Shown: in pieces, positions 30,248 through 37,159 of the stretch
How positions within the stretch are numbered: the first letter of the stretch is position 1
How the letters are laid out: every line of letters starts with the position of its first letter
Notes under the pieces: generated by a model
What the model saw: only the letters and a program-made list of their open reading frames with translations
Told to the model about the DNA's origin: nothing
Database searches by the model: none
Made by a program: the position numbers and the translations under genes
Assembly (NCBI GenBank): GCA_001304015.1
Contig: LJUY01000007.1
Coordinates: forward strand, 15,531-79,530
DNA from: a candidate division Zixibacteria bacterium SM23_81
GTDB taxonomy: Bacteria; SM23-81
Direction: 5' to 3'
Length of the DNA: 64,000 bases

Positions 30248-32476
30248 CTATTTTAAAAGGACCATCTTCCTGGTGCCGACGAAAGGGCCGACTCGAAGCA
30301 CGTAGAAGTAAATGCCACTGCTTACCCGATGGTCCTCGTCATCCTGGCCATTCCAGGTCACCCTGTGGAAGCCCGGTGCCAATGGAGCCTCAAGTAGGGT
30401 CCGGACTTGTTGTCCCAGGAGATTGTAAATCCTCAAGGTGGTCTGTTGGAGGCCCTCTCCGGGAAGGGCAAAGGTGATAGTGGTGGTGGGATTAAAGGGA
30501 TTGGGGTAATTTTGGTGCAGAGTGAATACTCGCGGTAGGGGGAGCTCATCCTGGAGCGCTGACTCCACCGGGGTGAACAGGCCGAAGTAGCCCAAGACTC
30601 TACCCATGACGGCAGTACGATCGCTCTCGGGATAGACGGTCTCAAAAGGAAAACCCAGATAGACCAGCCGACCCTCTTGGTTTGATCGACCGAAAACGCC
30701 CTGATATTGAACTCCCGCCTTATAAGAGGTGCCTGAATAGACCAAGTTCACCACGCTGGCTCCCATCTCGGCGATGGCATCAGGCTTATTTTCCTCGTAG
30801 ATCCCGTGGGTGCCGTCGTCGAAGGCGAAGTTCAGACCATCGAAGATGGTGCCGATAACGCCCTCTACGGTATTGGCCTCGGCGTCATCGGTGACATATT
30901 CGGCCTTCAAAATCTGATGGTAGAAGTCAGCGTCAGCCGTTGAGCCCAGCTCCACCAGATCGTAACCCACCTCTGATCCAGACAGAAAGAAATTCCCTCC
31001 ACCCTCTAGGTAAGTGGTCACTAAGCTCTGCTCGGTGGGGGTGAATGTGGAGTCCTCCTGGCCCTCGTCACCCAGGATCCAGATGACGGCATGGTAGTCA
31101 GCCAGGGGAATGCTGTCTAGGACAGCCGCCTCGTTGGCGCAGCAATCGAAGGCTACCCCCAAAGCGTCAAGGGCTCTGGCGTGGCTGAAAGCAAAGGGAT
31201 GAGACGGTTGCGTCCAGCTGTCGGAGGTGCGATCAAAACCGTCCACCAACAGGACCTTGGGTCCCACATCAGTGAGGCGAGTCCCATAGATGTCGGACTC
31301 AAGGCTCTCGTTGGGTATGGCCGCCGAGTCCACCGCGGTGAGCTTGAAGAAGAGAGAATGGTCGTTTTGGAAATCGGCCGTTAACTGGGTGGTAGTATCC
31401 GGTAAGTCGTCCTCATCGTAGTTGCAGTACCAATTTATACCGTCATAGCTGTGATGGAGCCGGTATCCCTTCAAATCGGGCTCCTTGTTGGCCTGCCATG
31501 AGACCGTCAGGCTATTATCCCTCGTGCCCGTGACCGATTTCAACACCGGCGTCGCGGGGCGCTCCACATCCTGCTCGGCCACCTCCACCCACACGGTGGT
31601 GGTGTCCCAGTTATCCCTGGTGTCACAGCAATACACGGCCACCAGGTAGTGACCGGGGTCCACCCAGCGGGTGTCCCAGTAGCTGTCGTGAGAGATCTGA
31701 TTGGTGACGATGTAGTAGTAGACAGAGGTGCTGGAGCCGGGGAAATACACGTTCGTGATGTAGGAGTCAGAGGGCTTGGTATCGAAGGTGAAGGGGAAAT
31801 GAGGTCCCTCCACGGAGGTAGTGTCCTCGGCCGCAAAGACCTGCCATCCGATGGAGTAGACCCCGTTGTTGCCCCCGTATGTGCTCATGTCTGTCCGATC
31901 ATAAGACCGTGACACGATGTCAACCAGGCCTGAGACCTTGGCTGTGGGAAACAGCTGGGTGGTACCATTCTCGTAGAAATTGATGGTCTGAACCGTCGGT
32001 TTATAGGGATCCTCGAAGGGGTAGAGACCACCAGGCCTGAGGGCGTTGATGATGGTGGTCCCGGAAGCACCGCCACCATCCTTGAAGTGGATGTGGTTTT
32101 GATCATTGGTGGTTCCCACCACGTCCCCTTGCTGGATGGGGTCGCCCACATGGAGGTCTGGATGGGGATTGACGTGGACGTAGCAAAAACGTCCCACGCG
32201 TATATATGCGTTGGCCCCGGAGGGATCCACGGTCAGGACGGTGCCGTCAGCAACCGACAACACAGCCCCGCCATAACCCAGGGGGATGTCCGTCCCATCG
32301 TGAAAGTGGTCTCGGTCGCCGCGGCACTCGCCGAAGGTGGCCGAGACGTTATGCTGGACGTCCATGGGAGCTAAAGGCCAGGGATACGTGGCCCCTGAGG
32401 AGGATGCCAGAACGAGGCTCCCTGCGCTGAGCGCCAGCAGGCTCAGGCAGAGGGCTGTCTTATTGATTGTGCGCAT
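30248..32476 (-). CDS. M23 (LytM-type) peptidase-like surface protein with sorting module
   Basis: Exported protein of 742 residues. Signal peptide to about residue 25; M23 domain (about 30-140) with the zinc motifs HDGTD (His59, Asp63) and HIH (His128, His130), so it may cut peptidoglycan cross-bridges. FN3-like domains follow (near 305-400: PATPVLKSVTGTRDNS), then a flavodoxin-like or ThuA-like part (KVLLVDGFDRTSDSW to RLVYLGFPFETV) and the sorting module NYPNPFNPTTTI ending RKMVLLK. It overlaps the preceding gene by 17 bp. Confidence 0.88.
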   Translation of the reverse strand: MRTINKTALCLSLLALSAGSLVLASSSGATYPWPLAPMDVQHNVSATFGECRGDRDHFHDGTDIPLGYGGAVLSVADGTVLTVDPSGANAYIRVGRFCYVHVNPHPDLHVGDPIQQGDVVGTTNDQNHIHFKDGGGASGTTIINALRPGGLYPFEDPYKPTVQTINFYENGTTQLFPTAKVSGLVDIVSRSYDRTDMSTYGGNNGVYSIGWQVFAAEDTTSVEGPHFPFTFDTKPSDSYITNVYFPGSSTSVYYYIVTNQISHDSYWDTRWVDPGHYLVAVYCCDTRDNWDTTTVWVEVAEQDVERPATPVLKSVTGTRDNSLTVSWQANKEPDLKGYRLHHSYDGINWYCNYDEDDLPDTTTQLTADFQNDHSLFFKLTAVDSAAIPNESLESDIYGTRLTDVGPKVLLVDGFDRTSDSWTQPSHPFAFSHARALDALGVAFDCCANEAAVLDSIPLADYHAVIWILGDEGQEDSTFTPTEQSLVTTYLEGGGNFFLSGSEVGYDLVELGSTADADFYHQILKAEYVTDDAEANTVEGVIGTIFDGLNFAFDDGTHGIYEENKPDAIAEMGASVVNLVYSGTSYKAGVQYQGVFGRSNQEGRLVYLGFPFETVYPESDRTAVMGRVLGYFGLFTPVESALQDELPLPRVFTLHQNYPNPFNPTTTITFALPGEGLQQTTLRIYNLLGQQVRTLLEAPLAPGFHRVTWNGQDDEDHRVSSGIYFYVLRVGPFVGTRKMVLLK

Positions 32477-33707
32477 AGATTAGATACCTTTTGTCGAAGG
32501 CTAAAAGAAACCGGGAGTTCTCATCCAGAAATTTTGCAAGAGGTTGGAGGAATCTCTCCTCAGGGAACGTCTTCTCCCAGACCTGGTGACCTTCCTCATC
32601 GAAGAGCAAGATCTGTGGCGACTGGTAGACGAACTGGGGGCCATGGTATCTTCCTGGGGCCAGCTCAACAAGAGCAAGTTGTCCGTTGGGAGACAGGTCC
32701 AAAGCTCGTATCTGGCCCGCCTTGCTGGGCAGAAGGTGTTCCCATAAGAGCTGGCCCGTTTGGGTCTCCACCAGATGAATGGAGTTCTTCTGGCCTAAAA
32801 GGAGAAACCGTCCGTCAGAGGAGAAGTCTGCGTAGCGGAAGGGAAATTCGTATGTGTGCTGTAAATTTCCATCCAGGTCGTAGAGGTGCGTGGATCGCTC
32901 TACGGCGTTCAACCCTTTGACGGAGTGGCCCCCGGCCACAATGGCTTTGCCATCTGAGGAGATCTCAACCGCCATTGAGACCTCATGGGCTAACTCACGA
33001 CGCCACATCTCTGTGCCCTGGTCGTCGAACAAAATCAGATAGCTATGTCCCCTTTCGCGTGGGGATAACTCGGTGCCCGGTCGAGCGTAATGTTTCAACG
33101 CATTGACGACAAAGTAGGTTCCATCTTCGGAAAAGGCACAGGCCACGGGGCGCTCCATCTCGGCCAAAGTTTTGGGGAAGAGAGAGGTCTTCTGGACCAG
33201 AGAGCCGGCCTGGTCGTAAAAAGAGAGAATTCCCTCCAGAGGTTCCACCATAACCAGCATCCCCAGATTGGAGAGATAGAAACTGGGCATGGGCGTGTCA
33301 ATCCCTAAGGATCGACTCAAAGACCAACGTTTCTTCCCCTGCCCATCGTAAAGGGTAAAAGTCAAAGCACTGGGAGATTCGAGCCTTTGATCGGAATCAG
33401 ATAGCTCCTGAATCCCGACGAAATTGCCCTTTTTGGAGAGGAATACTATGGTGTTCTGGCCACGCTCCAGACGCGACAGGACTTGGCCGGATGAGGTCAG
33501 AAACTGCACAGACTTCTGTGCAGCCAACATGGCCGGCCTGTCGCCGGAAAAGCTGACGGTGCTCCAAGCCCCGGGCAGAGAGCCCTCGACGACCAGTTGG
33601 TAGGTCAGCTGCGCTGGTTGATTCCCTCGTCTGCCCAAGGCCATTGCCAAAGAAAATAGACTCATGACCAGGGCCAGAGAGAACATGCAGGTGAGGATTT
33701 TTTTCAC
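32460..33707 (-). CDS. Exported WD40/quinoprotein-like beta-propeller protein
   Basis: Protein of 415 residues starting at a GTG (33707) with GGAG six bases before it; an open frame to 33821 has no ribosome site. A signal peptide ends at AMA near residue 24. The rest is made of propeller-like repeats: FSEDGTYFVVNA, ISSDGKAIVAGG, FSSDGRFLLLGQ and LSPNGQLALVEL, each a short DG turn with hydrophobic strands. Function unknown; such proteins often hold proteins together or track structural loads. Its stop overlaps the start of the M23 gene, so the two are translated together and may act as a pair. Confidence 0.75.
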   Translation of the reverse strand: MKKILTCMFSLALVMSLFSLAMALGRRGNQPAQLTYQLVVEGSLPGAWSTVSFSGDRPAMLAAQKSVQFLTSSGQVLSRLERGQNTIVFLSKKGNFVGIQELSDSDQRLESPSALTFTLYDGQGKKRWSLSRSLGIDTPMPSFYLSNLGMLVMVEPLEGILSFYDQAGSLVQKTSLFPKTLAEMERPVACAFSEDGTYFVVNALKHYARPGTELSPRERGHSYLILFDDQGTEMWRRELAHEVSMAVEISSDGKAIVAGGHSVKGLNAVERSTHLYDLDGNLQHTYEFPFRYADFSSDGRFLLLGQKNSIHLVETQTGQLLWEHLLPSKAGQIRALDLSPNGQLALVELAPGRYHGPQFVYQSPQILLFDEEGHQVWEKTFPEERFLQPLAKFLDENSRFLLAFDKRYLIYAHNQ

Positions 33708-33772
33708 GGATGACTCCTGTATAAGATGAGACCATAGAGAAGTCTTGAGGATTCGGGCATCGATCTTTTCAA

Positions 33773-34325
33773 CTAGAATTTTGATTTCCAATTTTTGGGC
33801 TTTTCTTTGCCTCGTTCCCATTTCAAGGGGTTGTTCATGATATATTCGCGGAGTTCATTCAGATCGTGTTCGTTGGGGATGACATGTTCGTGGTAGTTAC
33901 GTTGCCAAACAGCAGCACCATATGTGATTCGTAGTTCGTTGATCCGTTTGGTCACAGCAGATTTAAAGCCCCGAACGATAGCGCCTATGGTCTGCGAAGG
34001 GGATCGAAATTTATTTTGGATTGTAGGGGCGTATTGCAATACGCCCCTACAATTGATGAAAATTATTGCATGCACATGATTTGGCATAATGGCAAACCTG
34101 TCCAAGGCGATATTAATCCGTAAATTGGCCGTTTTCGTCAATTCATTTTCGACAATGCGACCGAATGAATTCAGTTGCATTTCGACATCCACGACATTGT
34201 CAATTGTCAAACAAGCATCTCTTATCAGGCGCACAAGCCGTGACGAAATAGGCGCCACTTTGGAAATAATCAAAACCTTTTAACCGTAGCGAACGCCGAT
34301 GCTGTCCGTTTGGATATTTTGGCAT
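33773..34325 (-). pseudogene. REP-associated tyrosine transposase (RAYT), frameshifted
   Basis: Y1-type HUH transposase of the RAYT group. The start is visible at ATG 34325: MPKYPNG, then RRSLRLKGFDY and SGAYFVTAC, the classic N-terminus. After CLFDN the frame closes; the protein resumes in another frame at VVDVEMQLN and runs through the HUH motif PNHVH, the catalytic-tyrosine region VWQRNYHEHVI, and YIMNNPLKWE to a stop at 33773. The break is an exact 7-bp tandem duplication, ATTGTCA twice at 34196-34209; removing one copy gives a whole gene of 181 residues. A 34-bp palindrome (34020-34053) lies in its variable loop and is read as GVLQYAPT. Inactive as it stands. Confidence 0.9.
34020..34053. 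repeat. 34-bp perfect palindrome (REP-like) inside the RAYT gene
   Basis: ATTGTAGGGGCGTATTG followed at once by its reverse complement, with no loop. It resembles the REP hairpins that RAYT proteins bind, and it lies in frame within the transposase gene. I saw no second copy in this window. Confidence 0.85.
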
Positions 34326-34442
34326 GACGCTCTGAAGTGGGCTAGAAAGCCAGGCACCTATATCTTGAATCCTTGATTGTTTGGCTGCTTTGCTCTCATT
34401 TACAAATTAACCACTCCTGTTGCCCTTGTCAAGTCTTTCCAC

Positions 34443-34474
34443 AAAAAAGGGGAGAGAGCCAATGCCCTCTCCCC
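34443..34474 (-). terminator. Intrinsic terminator
   Basis: GGGGAGAG, a 10-nt loop, CTCTCCCC and TTTTTT on the minus strand, 15 bp after the stop of the WWDP-module gene at 34489. Confidence 0.9.
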
Positions 34475-34488
34475 GTATCCTCAGGGAC

Positions 34489-35427
34489 TTAGCGCAAGAA
34501 CGTCATCTTGATGCTTTGGGCGAAGCCGTCCGCCTCCATTCGGCAGAAGTATACTCCGCTGGCCAGAATCCCGCCCTGTTGGTCGGTGCCGTTCCAGCTC
34601 ACTCGGTAGCTGCCGGTGGCCATTTCCTCCTCCACCAGCGTATTGACCAGCTGGCCGGTCGCGTTATAAACCTTTAGGCTGACGTGTCCCGCCTTTGCGA
34701 CGATGAACTGAATCTGTGTCTCCGCGTTGAACGGATTGGGATAGTTCTGGGATAGGGTGTGCTGACGCGGCAGCTCGCCGGAGCCCATTGATTGAGGCTC
34801 CACAACGGTGGCCTCTGCTTTCAGAATCTGATAGCTGTCTAGAGAGACCATAGGGCCATCTATAACTCCGTTTCCGTTCACCCAGCCAACGACTGGGTCG
34901 ACGGCTAGATCAAAGGTGACCAGCTGCCAGCCAGTCCAGTCGATGGGAATCCAAGGGCTGCCCTCCATTCCGTCAGAGTCGTCTATGCAAAAGCGAAACT
35001 GATCCAAGCTATTATTCCCGTAGATCCATACCTGCACCTTGTCGTTGCTGGACCAATTGGGGGAACCTTGCATATACTGGGGGTATTCTCTAATGAAACC
35101 CGCCGAGTCGGTATGTTCCCACTGGTATTCCAGCTTGGCAGAGGTCGTCCCAGCGTACACGGTGGTAAATTCGTCAACGAAAACTGAAGAGTTGGTGTTA
35201 TAGGCCTCGCCAGGGCCGTAATAGGTACCATAGGTGCTGCCGCTTCCATCTGGGTCCCACCAGCCGTTTGCGAGGACGCCGCCCTCGTAGTCATCCAAGA
35301 TGGTCGTGTCTCCGAAGGCCGGGACCACCCTTAAGTCGTCGAAGTAAATCTGGGTGATGTCCATCTGGCCCCAACAGATGCCGGCGGAGAGCAGAATGAC
35401 AAAGGTTGTGAGCAATGCTGTTCTCAT
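34489..35427 (-). CDS. Secreted WWDP carbohydrate-binding-like module with sorting module
   Basis: Exported protein of 312 residues: signal peptide to about residue 20 (CWGQ), a single jelly-roll-like module of about 190 residues (DDYEGG, WWDPDGSGST, IYGNNSLDQFRFCIDD, IDWTGWQLVTFDL), then NYPNPFNAETQI and IKMTFLR. The same module precedes the sorting module in the amidase at 15429, with the same key residues, so this is a free-standing version. It may bind a glycan or surface; there is no catalytic domain. AAGGAG precedes the ATG. Flanked by strong terminators on both sides, so it has its own promoter. Confidence 0.8.
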   Translation of the reverse strand: MRTALLTTFVILLSAGICWGQMDITQIYFDDLRVVPAFGDTTILDDYEGGVLANGWWDPDGSGSTYGTYYGPGEAYNTNSSVFVDEFTTVYAGTTSAKLEYQWEHTDSAGFIREYPQYMQGSPNWSSNDKVQVWIYGNNSLDQFRFCIDDSDGMEGSPWIPIDWTGWQLVTFDLAVDPVVGWVNGNGVIDGPMVSLDSYQILKAEATVVEPQSMGSGELPRQHTLSQNYPNPFNAETQIQFIVAKAGHVSLKVYNATGQLVNTLVEEEMATGSYRVSWNGTDQQGGILASGVYFCRMEADGFAQSIKMTFLR

Positions 35428-35506: not shown

Positions 35507-37150
35507 CTACTTCAAAAAGGTCATCTTCTTGGTCTGGTTGAAATCTCCAGCCAGCAGCTGATAGAAGTACACCCCGCTGGCAACTGGTCGGCCGCCTTCG
35601 TCCGTCCCGTCCCAGGTCACGGCATAGCGATTGATGGGCTTGTAGTCGTTCACCAAGGTTTTGACCAGCTGTCCCGTGGAGTTGAAAACCCTCAGGGTAA
35701 CCTGATTCGGTCGAGAGATGGTGTACTCGATGGTGGTCTGGGCGTTGAACGGGTTGGGATAGTTCTGGGCCAGCTGGAACTCGCGTGGGACGTCGACGGC
35801 GATGGTGTACTCCTCCACTTCCGTCTCCCCGGTCCACTCGAAGACCCGGAACCACTTGCCTTCTGGCGGTACGGCCTCCAGGAAGGTGGCCACCAACTCC
35901 AGCTTATCGTCTTTGTCCAGGTCCACCGACGGCGCAGAGAGGGCGAAAGAGCCCTGATCGTTTGAGGTGCCTACGAACAGGTCGTAATGTGTCCAGGCGG
36001 CTGGGTCGGTAGGATCCGCGCCGGTGAGCTCCCAATCCTTGATGACGCCGCTGGTGTACACGGCGGTGAAGATGTCCATACCGTCGGTGCCGGTGCCGTG
36101 ATCCTGATCGCCTATGGCCATGCCGTAAGCCCCGGCCTCACCGGTGTAGGCGATATAGGTGACGTTGTTCCCAAAGGTGATGGTGCTGACGTCGGCGCCG
36201 CCGGTGATGACGGCCATCTCTCCCCCGCCGTAGATATTGAAGTAGACCTCATCGGCGCCATCGTTGTTCAGGTCGGCCACCTCGAAGTTGTCCAGGTTGA
36301 CCCCATCTCCTGTGGTGTCGATGGAGATGTAGGTCTGGTATGCGTAGGCGTTGGCCCCGGTAGCTTCTACGATGTAGAGGGCGGCGTAATCCCAGACCCC
36401 GAAGATGGCCTCCTTCAGGCCATCCCCATCCATATCGCCGATCTGAGCGTTGGTAGGGCTTCCGCCGAAGGGGTTGGCGCCACCGCGCATGAACGCTGCT
36501 TCCTCATTCCAGGTGAAGAAGCCAGATTCGAAGGTGCCACTCACCGAGAGGATATACAGGCCGTCCTGGTCGTCGGGGTTTTCGGTATTGTCCACGATAA
36601 CCATCTCGTTCTGACCATCGTCGTCCACGTCTCCTATGGCGAACCCTTCGGCGCGGAAACGCTGTTGGTGGGTGGGATTAGGCTTGTAGATGGCAACAGC
36701 TTCCGTCCCGTATCCGTTGTCGGTGCTGCCATCCCATTCGTAGACGTGCACACCCCCCTCGTAATCCACGCTCCAGGAACCATCGGAGCCCGCGAAGATG
36801 ATCTCGCCAATACCGTCGTTGTCCATGTCGCCGGTTCCCACCTGGCGGATGTTGCCTACGTTGGATCCGGCGGAGCTCCATACCCACTCCAGGGTGTTGT
36901 CACCGGTGACCTCGTAGACGTGCACCATCCCTCCGTTATCATAGTCGGTGACGATGATCTCGTACAGGCCATCCTGGTCCAGGTCCGAGCCGGCGGCCAG
37001 CCCGCGGATGAGGCTGTCGGATAGGGTATCGTCCTCGGCGTTGCCGTAGGCGTATTCGAAGATGTTGTCGCCATCGGCGGCCCAACCCACAGATACGGCC
37101 AGGAGAAGAGCCATGGCCCAAATGGCCAACGGAACTCCTCGTCTGATCAC
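35507..37150 (-). CDS. FG-GAP/VCBS-repeat surface protein with sorting module
   Basis: Exported protein of about 547 residues starting at GTG 37150 (AAAGGGGG upstream). Signal peptide ends near WAA, then repeats of the FG-GAP type with calcium-binding-like loops: SDLDQDGLYEI, GDMDNDGIGEI, GDVDDDGQNEM, GDMDGDGLKEA, ADLNNDGADEV and SVDLDKDDKLEL. It is probably a seven-bladed propeller that binds calcium. The C-terminus has NYPNPFNAQTTI and ends KKMTFLK. Role may be adhesion; no enzyme domain is visible. Confidence 0.88.
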   Translation of the reverse strand: MIRRGVPLAIWAMALLLAVSVGWAADGDNIFEYAYGNAEDDTLSDSLIRGLAAGSDLDQDGLYEIIVTDYDNGGMVHVYEVTGDNTLEWVWSSAGSNVGNIRQVGTGDMDNDGIGEIIFAGSDGSWSVDYEGGVHVYEWDGSTDNGYGTEAVAIYKPNPTHQQRFRAEGFAIGDVDDDGQNEMVIVDNTENPDDQDGLYILSVSGTFESGFFTWNEEAAFMRGGANPFGGSPTNAQIGDMDGDGLKEAIFGVWDYAALYIVEATGANAYAYQTYISIDTTGDGVNLDNFEVADLNNDGADEVYFNIYGGGEMAVITGGADVSTITFGNNVTYIAYTGEAGAYGMAIGDQDHGTGTDGMDIFTAVYTSGVIKDWELTGADPTDPAAWTHYDLFVGTSNDQGSFALSAPSVDLDKDDKLELVATFLEAVPPEGKWFRVFEWTGETEVEEYTIAVDVPREFQLAQNYPNPFNAQTTIEYTISRPNQVTLRVFNSTGQLVKTLVNDYKPINRYAVTWDGTDEGGRPVASGVYFYQLLAGDFNQTKKMTFLK

Positions 37151-37159
37151 GATCTGCAC

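Follow-up and report, generated by a model that had tools for sequence, protein, structure and literature searches.

The 64,000 nt window analysed here, a stretch of contig LJUY01000007.1 from the candidate division Zixibacteria bacterium SM23_81, contains a broken RAYT (TnpA-REP) gene with a palindrome inside its own reading frame, raising the question of how the protein and the repeat are related. TnpA-REP proteins bind hairpins, contact the GTAG tag and cleave DNA through their HUH motif and tyrosine, and TnpA-REP subclass 2.4 corresponds to group 4 in the RAYT grouping of Bertels et al. 2017. The gene is probably a member of this subclass in which the enzyme's cognate REP is housed in frame in a disordered loop linking strand beta3 to helix alphaC, and whose frame has been broken by a 7 bp duplication. 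The features on which this reading draws are as follows.

33773-34325, reverse strand: RAYT/TnpA-REP gene in two frames, split at a tandem ATTGTCA duplication (from translation).
34200-34325, reverse strand: RAYT N-terminal piece, 41 aa from the ATG at 34325, reading MPKYPNGQHRRSLRLKGFDYFQSGAYFVTACAPDKRCLFDN and then a stop (from translation).
34196-34209, reverse strand: two tandem copies of ATTGTCA, the site of the frame change, with the stop of the upstream frame inside them (from sequence).
33773-34210, reverse strand: rest of the RAYT frame, 145 aa, with the HUH, WQ and Tyr motifs (from translation).
34070-34087, reverse strand: HUH metal-binding motif MPNHVH (from translation).
34020-34053, forward strand: perfect palindrome, a double-foot GTAG REP in the beta3-alphaC loop, read as CRGVLQYAPT (from sequence, with the same site used in paralogues and most relatives).
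33932-33994, reverse strand: helix alphaC, QTIGAIVRGFKSAVTKRINEL, the presumed reader of the REP stem (from a paralogue model, predicted helix 112-131, and covariation with the stem).
33842-33844, reverse strand: presumed catalytic tyrosine codon, in EYIMNNP (from translation; the YIxNNP motif of subclass 2.4 in the relevant passages of PMC6006769).

The identification of the gene as a RAYT in the preliminary description is upheld by the HUH motif, by WQRNY and YIMNNP in the translation and by a match to Pfam Y1_Tnp (PF01797, E 2.5e-6). The NCBIfam model NF047646 also matches (E 3.6e-15), at 56.1 bits and so under its curated cut-off of 80 bits, as do the intact paralogues (72.3 and 67.4 bits); a RAYT belonging to a different subgroup reaches 120.6. 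The break had likewise been placed correctly at the duplication, as the gene lies in two frames and both halves align to a single intact homologue, L054, with 47% identity over 38 aa and 59% over 137 aa, residues 1-38 of L054 being the part matched by the N-terminal piece. The downstream frame is open from 34210 through to 33773, and a mechanical ORF call prolongs it to 34273, in a frame other than that of the real N-terminus. The window copy consequently has no intact reading frame, since the frame changes and a stop is met within the duplication, while the RAYTs on contigs C82 and C29 of the same assembly are intact. Exact tandem pairs of 7-mers occur at five places in the window, against about four expected, so that only the position of the ATTGTCA pair, at the frame break, is telling; the duplication was dropped as evidence in itself. 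Genes neighbouring the RAYT (30248-32476, 34489-35427 and 35507-37159) encode QNYPNPFN-type C-terminal domains, like those of sorted secreted proteins.

The duplication arose independently of the palindrome, and the pseudogene itself is either ordinary or an assembly error. The second of these, in which the 7 bp duplication was introduced by sequencing or assembly and the RAYT is intact in the organism, is unlikely but deserves some weight: the genome is a draft in 99 contigs, every catalytic motif is present with no further lesion seen, and a sister RAYT is truncated by a contig end lying inside its REP, from which it appears that repeats of this type trouble assembly. Against it, exact 7 bp tandem copies are ordinary products of slippage, as the five such places in the window illustrate.

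The palindrome is as it was originally described, a loopless 34 bp sequence read in frame within the variable loop. Its two 17 bp arms (34020-34036 and 34037-34053) are 100% complementary, making it the longest near-perfect inverted repeat of the 64 kb window, and as single-stranded DNA it is predicted to fold with an energy of -16.5 kcal/mol (z = -8.0). In the 33773-34210 frame it is translated as C R G V L Q Y A P T. The view that it is of the type on which this transposase family acts is also sustained, the sequence having the form of a GTAG REP, a palindrome of about 20-40 bp with terminal GTAG, here TGTAGGGGCG...CGCCCCTACA and double-footed. An exact search of the 3.07 Mb, 99-contig genome with the 17-mer arm finds no second copy, a result that is misleading when taken alone because the core GTAGGGGCGTATTGCAATACGCCCC recurs at other loci: exactly at C33:14668, with one change at C20:1200 and with two extra central bases at C47:23508. 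Further copies in the genome, sharing the same inner stem, are thus present, as the preliminary description had anticipated. With only four loci carrying it in all, the window's stem is barely repetitive; other stems are also present, and the tag TGTAGGGGCG occurs 30 times in the genome, compared with 6 for a reversed control. No flanking REP lies beside the window RAYT in the 2.2 kb searched (33000-35200), while one is found at the C82 paralogue (L021:718); the relevant passages of PMC6006769 do not state that flanking REPs are required of every subclass 2.4 member. A literature search with the letters of the repeat returned no paper on it.

The genome has four RAYTs of this subgroup, the window gene included, and in every one the same loop holds a palindrome, with a stem that differs from gene to gene. 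In the C82 paralogue the stem is GATTCATGAATC, read as VGAIHESPL; in C29 it is GGTTCGCGAACC, read as RGGSRTAPT; and in C58 it is GGGTTTGAAACCC, read as VGAGFKPAPT, where the contig ends. Other loci of the genome repeat the C29 and C82 stems (C94 and C96; C82:4218), and an insert of this kind is lacking from two further RAYTs of the genome, which belong to another subgroup. At the start of contig C58, which stops within the REP of its RAYT (L030:12-40), a second, degenerate copy read as GAGFKPA lies upstream of the start. Other palindromes are also dispersed in this assembly. One with stem GTATCGCGATAC (C22:8526-8550; L003:1267-1290) adjoins an other-subgroup RAYT on the window's own contig, and a family with GTAGGGGCTCAATATATTGAGCCCC (C44:10291, C82:67302 and C96:13539; L032, L033 and L035) has no corresponding RAYT found in the assembly. 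One-footed REPs starting TGTAGGGGCGAG (L009:447, L010:352, L012:1220 and L016:417) have a degenerate GCAATA/GCAATG tract and ATAATGAAAT or a similar sequence upstream, forming a composite dispersed element.

The main point of the preliminary description belongs to a kind already known, since in-frame REP insertions have been published, in the relevant passages of Quentin et al. 2018 (PMC6006769), as a predominant and unique feature of TnpA-REP subclass 2.4. As far as those passages go, the window RAYT shares with this subclass the NHVH (HUH motif NH[IFV]H), WQ and YIxNNP motifs, the variable beta3-alphaC insertion, the in-frame REP and the double-foot form of the REP, and differs in being frame-shifted and without a nearby flanking REP. 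The GTAG REPs and REPtrons of Di Nocera et al. 2013 (PMC3733652) are similarly GTAG-tagged, dispersed palindromes tied to RAYTs and sometimes intragenic, although the window's REP is double-footed, of low copy number and within the RAYT rather than beside it. Rickettsia palindromic elements (cited in PMC3733652) also form in-frame palindromes within protein-coding genes, but are spread over unrelated genes, whereas here the insert occupies one loop in the gene of the enzyme presumed to mobilise it.

Relatives from 80 loci in a one-genome-per-species collection were compared, with 82 genes analysed. A loop palindrome score of at least 8 was found in 67 of the 82, compared with 4.4% of synonymous-codon shuffles, and such scores were reached in only 4/82 N-terminal and 1/82 C-terminal segments of the same genes. 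The tag GTAGGGGC is present in 70 of the 82 loops, across many phyla, but in only 8 of the core sequences outside the loop, and it is absent in its exact form from 12 loops. The ranking of the first 80 relatives was by likeness to proteins already containing the REP peptide; in less selected sets the tag is present in 34 of 56 and 16 of 22 loops. What had been presented as a neat single case is therefore nothing of the sort, given that 4/4 paralogues and 70/82 relatives are alike and, in the relevant passages of PMC6006769, in-frame REPs are published. The comparison of relatives with and without the insert that had been suggested could be made in part: most relatives have it and some intact ones lack a recognisable REP in the loop, but the phylum itself, with 4 genomes, offered no close relative in which presence or absence of the insert or the duplication could be compared. 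Only three distant relatives were found in viral contigs.

Among the 79 genes with a clean stem, a lone double-foot REP is present in 43 and two single-foot REPs in a REPIN-like pair in 11, such pairs replacing the double-foot REP in the loops of L053, L060, L063, L066, L070, L080, L091, L123, L167, L189 and L219. The loops of L069 and L228 are lengthened by in-frame tandem copies of REP peptides (VGTGRDAAS and VGADLRVRPD). The loop REPs are held at the DNA level and not as peptide. In nine genes with stem GGTTCGCGAACC, from several phyla, the 28 bp REP is 100% identical while nearby coding DNA is 70-75% identical, and the ACGGCATGCCGT palindrome is read in two frames, as GRGTACRAPT in L062 and as VGARHAVPLQ in L117. 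The TAG of the foot closes one of the reading frames of a REP, and the remaining two are both used. REPs flanking these genes, within 600 bp and outside the loop, agree with the gene's own loop stem at no fewer than five of six bases in 51 of 59 cases, with a mean of 5.39 of 6 arm bases compared with 2.30 for random loop stems. Further afield, the gene's own stem makes up most of the copies listed in genomes G013 (AATTCATGAATT) and G016 (GGGTTTCAAACCC); in G008 other stems are common (GCAGCGCGCTGC), for which a second RAYT may be the reason.

These patterns bear on the proposal that the REP within the gene has a function in cis, either in autoregulation, with the RAYT reducing its own expression by binding this hairpin in its gene or mRNA, or in mobility, with the REP serving as an end that the gene requires in order to move. 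Use of the same loop in most members, the identity of REP DNA across phyla, the use of two frames and the strength of the hairpin would all fit such a role, which nevertheless appears doubtful, as a recognisable loop REP is missing from some intact relatives and renewal from dispersed copies would equally keep the REP identical.

A relationship between repeat and protein is apparent in the helix that follows the loop. The model of the C29 paralogue (pLDDT 88.5, with the REP-coded loop at about 56-67) has a variable loop of low model confidence between strand 81-88 and helix 112-131 that runs straight into alphaC, and the variable insertion falls at the same place in the alignment. The closest solved structure by Z is that of TnpA-REP with a REP hairpin (PDB 4er8, Z 12.7), from Escherichia coli, which has the same fold, although it belongs to another group, lacks a REP-coded insert between beta3 and the helix and has a bulged REP. 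In this protein the equivalent helix, after the HUH motif, contacts the REP stem and carries K82, which contacts the bulge (Corneloup et al. 2021, PMC8266576); when the residues around FK are aligned by hand, K82 would fall near FK+2. A role for the helix after HUH as the reader of group-3 REPs is found in that paper only as speculation.

Across the family, stem similarity tracks alphaC similarity (Mantel rho 0.384, 0/5000 permutations), whereas the corresponding values for the N-terminal and C-terminal parts of the same proteins are 0.036 and -0.002. Dereplication leaves the association in place (0.234, 0/5000), as does exclusion of the commonest stem (0.339). Within the set, the nearest neighbour predicts the stem in 72% of cases by alphaC, 46% by the N-terminal segment and 4% by the C-terminal segment. 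For 22 RAYTs fetched later, alphaC predicts 4.59 of 6 arm bases compared with 2.22 when shuffled (0/20000), with at least five bases right in 12/22, and the C-terminal segment predicts 2.39. The window's own alphaC fares less simply: over the full 21-residue helix its nearest neighbour in the training set has another stem, while L054, the best whole-gene match, has the right one; the C29 and C82 stems are predicted well, and L054 has in common with L159 and L172, two of the genes fetched later, a TIGAIVRGFK-type helix and the stem GTATTGCAATAC. An association of alphaC with the stem was not found described in the literature searched, coverage of which was partial; in the relevant passages of PMC6006769 the REP-bearing loop is considered peripheral and covariation of helix and stem is absent.

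As only some tens of bases separate the REP from alphaC downstream of it, the covariation might reflect mere linkage, with the repeat and the adjacent alphaC codons being swapped as a cassette without recognition. This is improbable. The covariation peaks from FK -6 to +5, decaying to 0.08 at FK+5 and 0.01 at FK+8, with none from there onward, and on the other side of the REP, near HUH, it is about 0.02-0.06. The signal is moreover concentrated on one helix face: the largest single-position partial correlations are at -5, -1, +4, -9, +2 and -2 around FK, and the face comprising -5, -2, -1, +2, +3 and +4, picked after these single-position results, gives 0.39 compared with 0.20 for other alphaC positions. 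Where the loop REP is missing, alphaC also tends to fit the flanking REPs, at 4.38 of 6 bases compared with 2.32, over only 8 sites. The idea that codon usage or protein constraint gave rise to the in-frame palindrome by chance, to which recurring loop peptides such as xGxxxAPT might point, can be discarded for the set as a whole, as such palindromes almost never arise in synonymous shuffles, one is used in two frames and copies are also present at loci of the genome that are not RAYT genes.

At the level of sequence, the family is thus characterised by an embedded REP in most members, varied inner stems, identity of the DNA, matching flanks and covariation with alphaC, and recognition of a cognate REP by its own RAYT would proceed as follows. 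A single-stranded REP would fold into a hairpin, with its GTAG foot bound near the active site and its upper stem read by alphaC, and the HUH/Tyr site would cut and join DNA beside the hairpin. A REPIN consists of two inverted REPs, and the double-foot REP would be a collapsed REPIN. RAYTs have been proposed to act preferentially on REPs adjoining their own gene (Nunvar et al. 2013, PMC3686654), and an enzyme active mostly near its own gene would therefore see its cognate REPs or REPINs inserted or renewed in and around that gene. Those entering the gene itself would survive where a protein loop tolerates them, and helix and REP would consequently change together. Both options of the preliminary description, REP insertion into its own gene and evolution of the two as one unit, accordingly have support, the second being strengthened by the covariation of helix and stem.

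Group 4 RAYT genes may well be self-labelled protein-DNA pairs, in which the alphaC face (about -5, -2, -1 and +2 to +4 around the invariant FK) reads the upper stem; as each gene would then carry its own substrate, the recognition code would be derivable from sequence alone. A covarying family makes the way in which RAYTs discriminate their own REPs from others testable by simple swaps. The window gene adds one broken member to the subclass, but the parallel variation of alphaC and palindrome across phyla could be used to match helices with the DNA that they recognise, and a large family with its own substrate in each gene, and a helix that predicts it, supports the view that RAYT and REP evolve as one unit.
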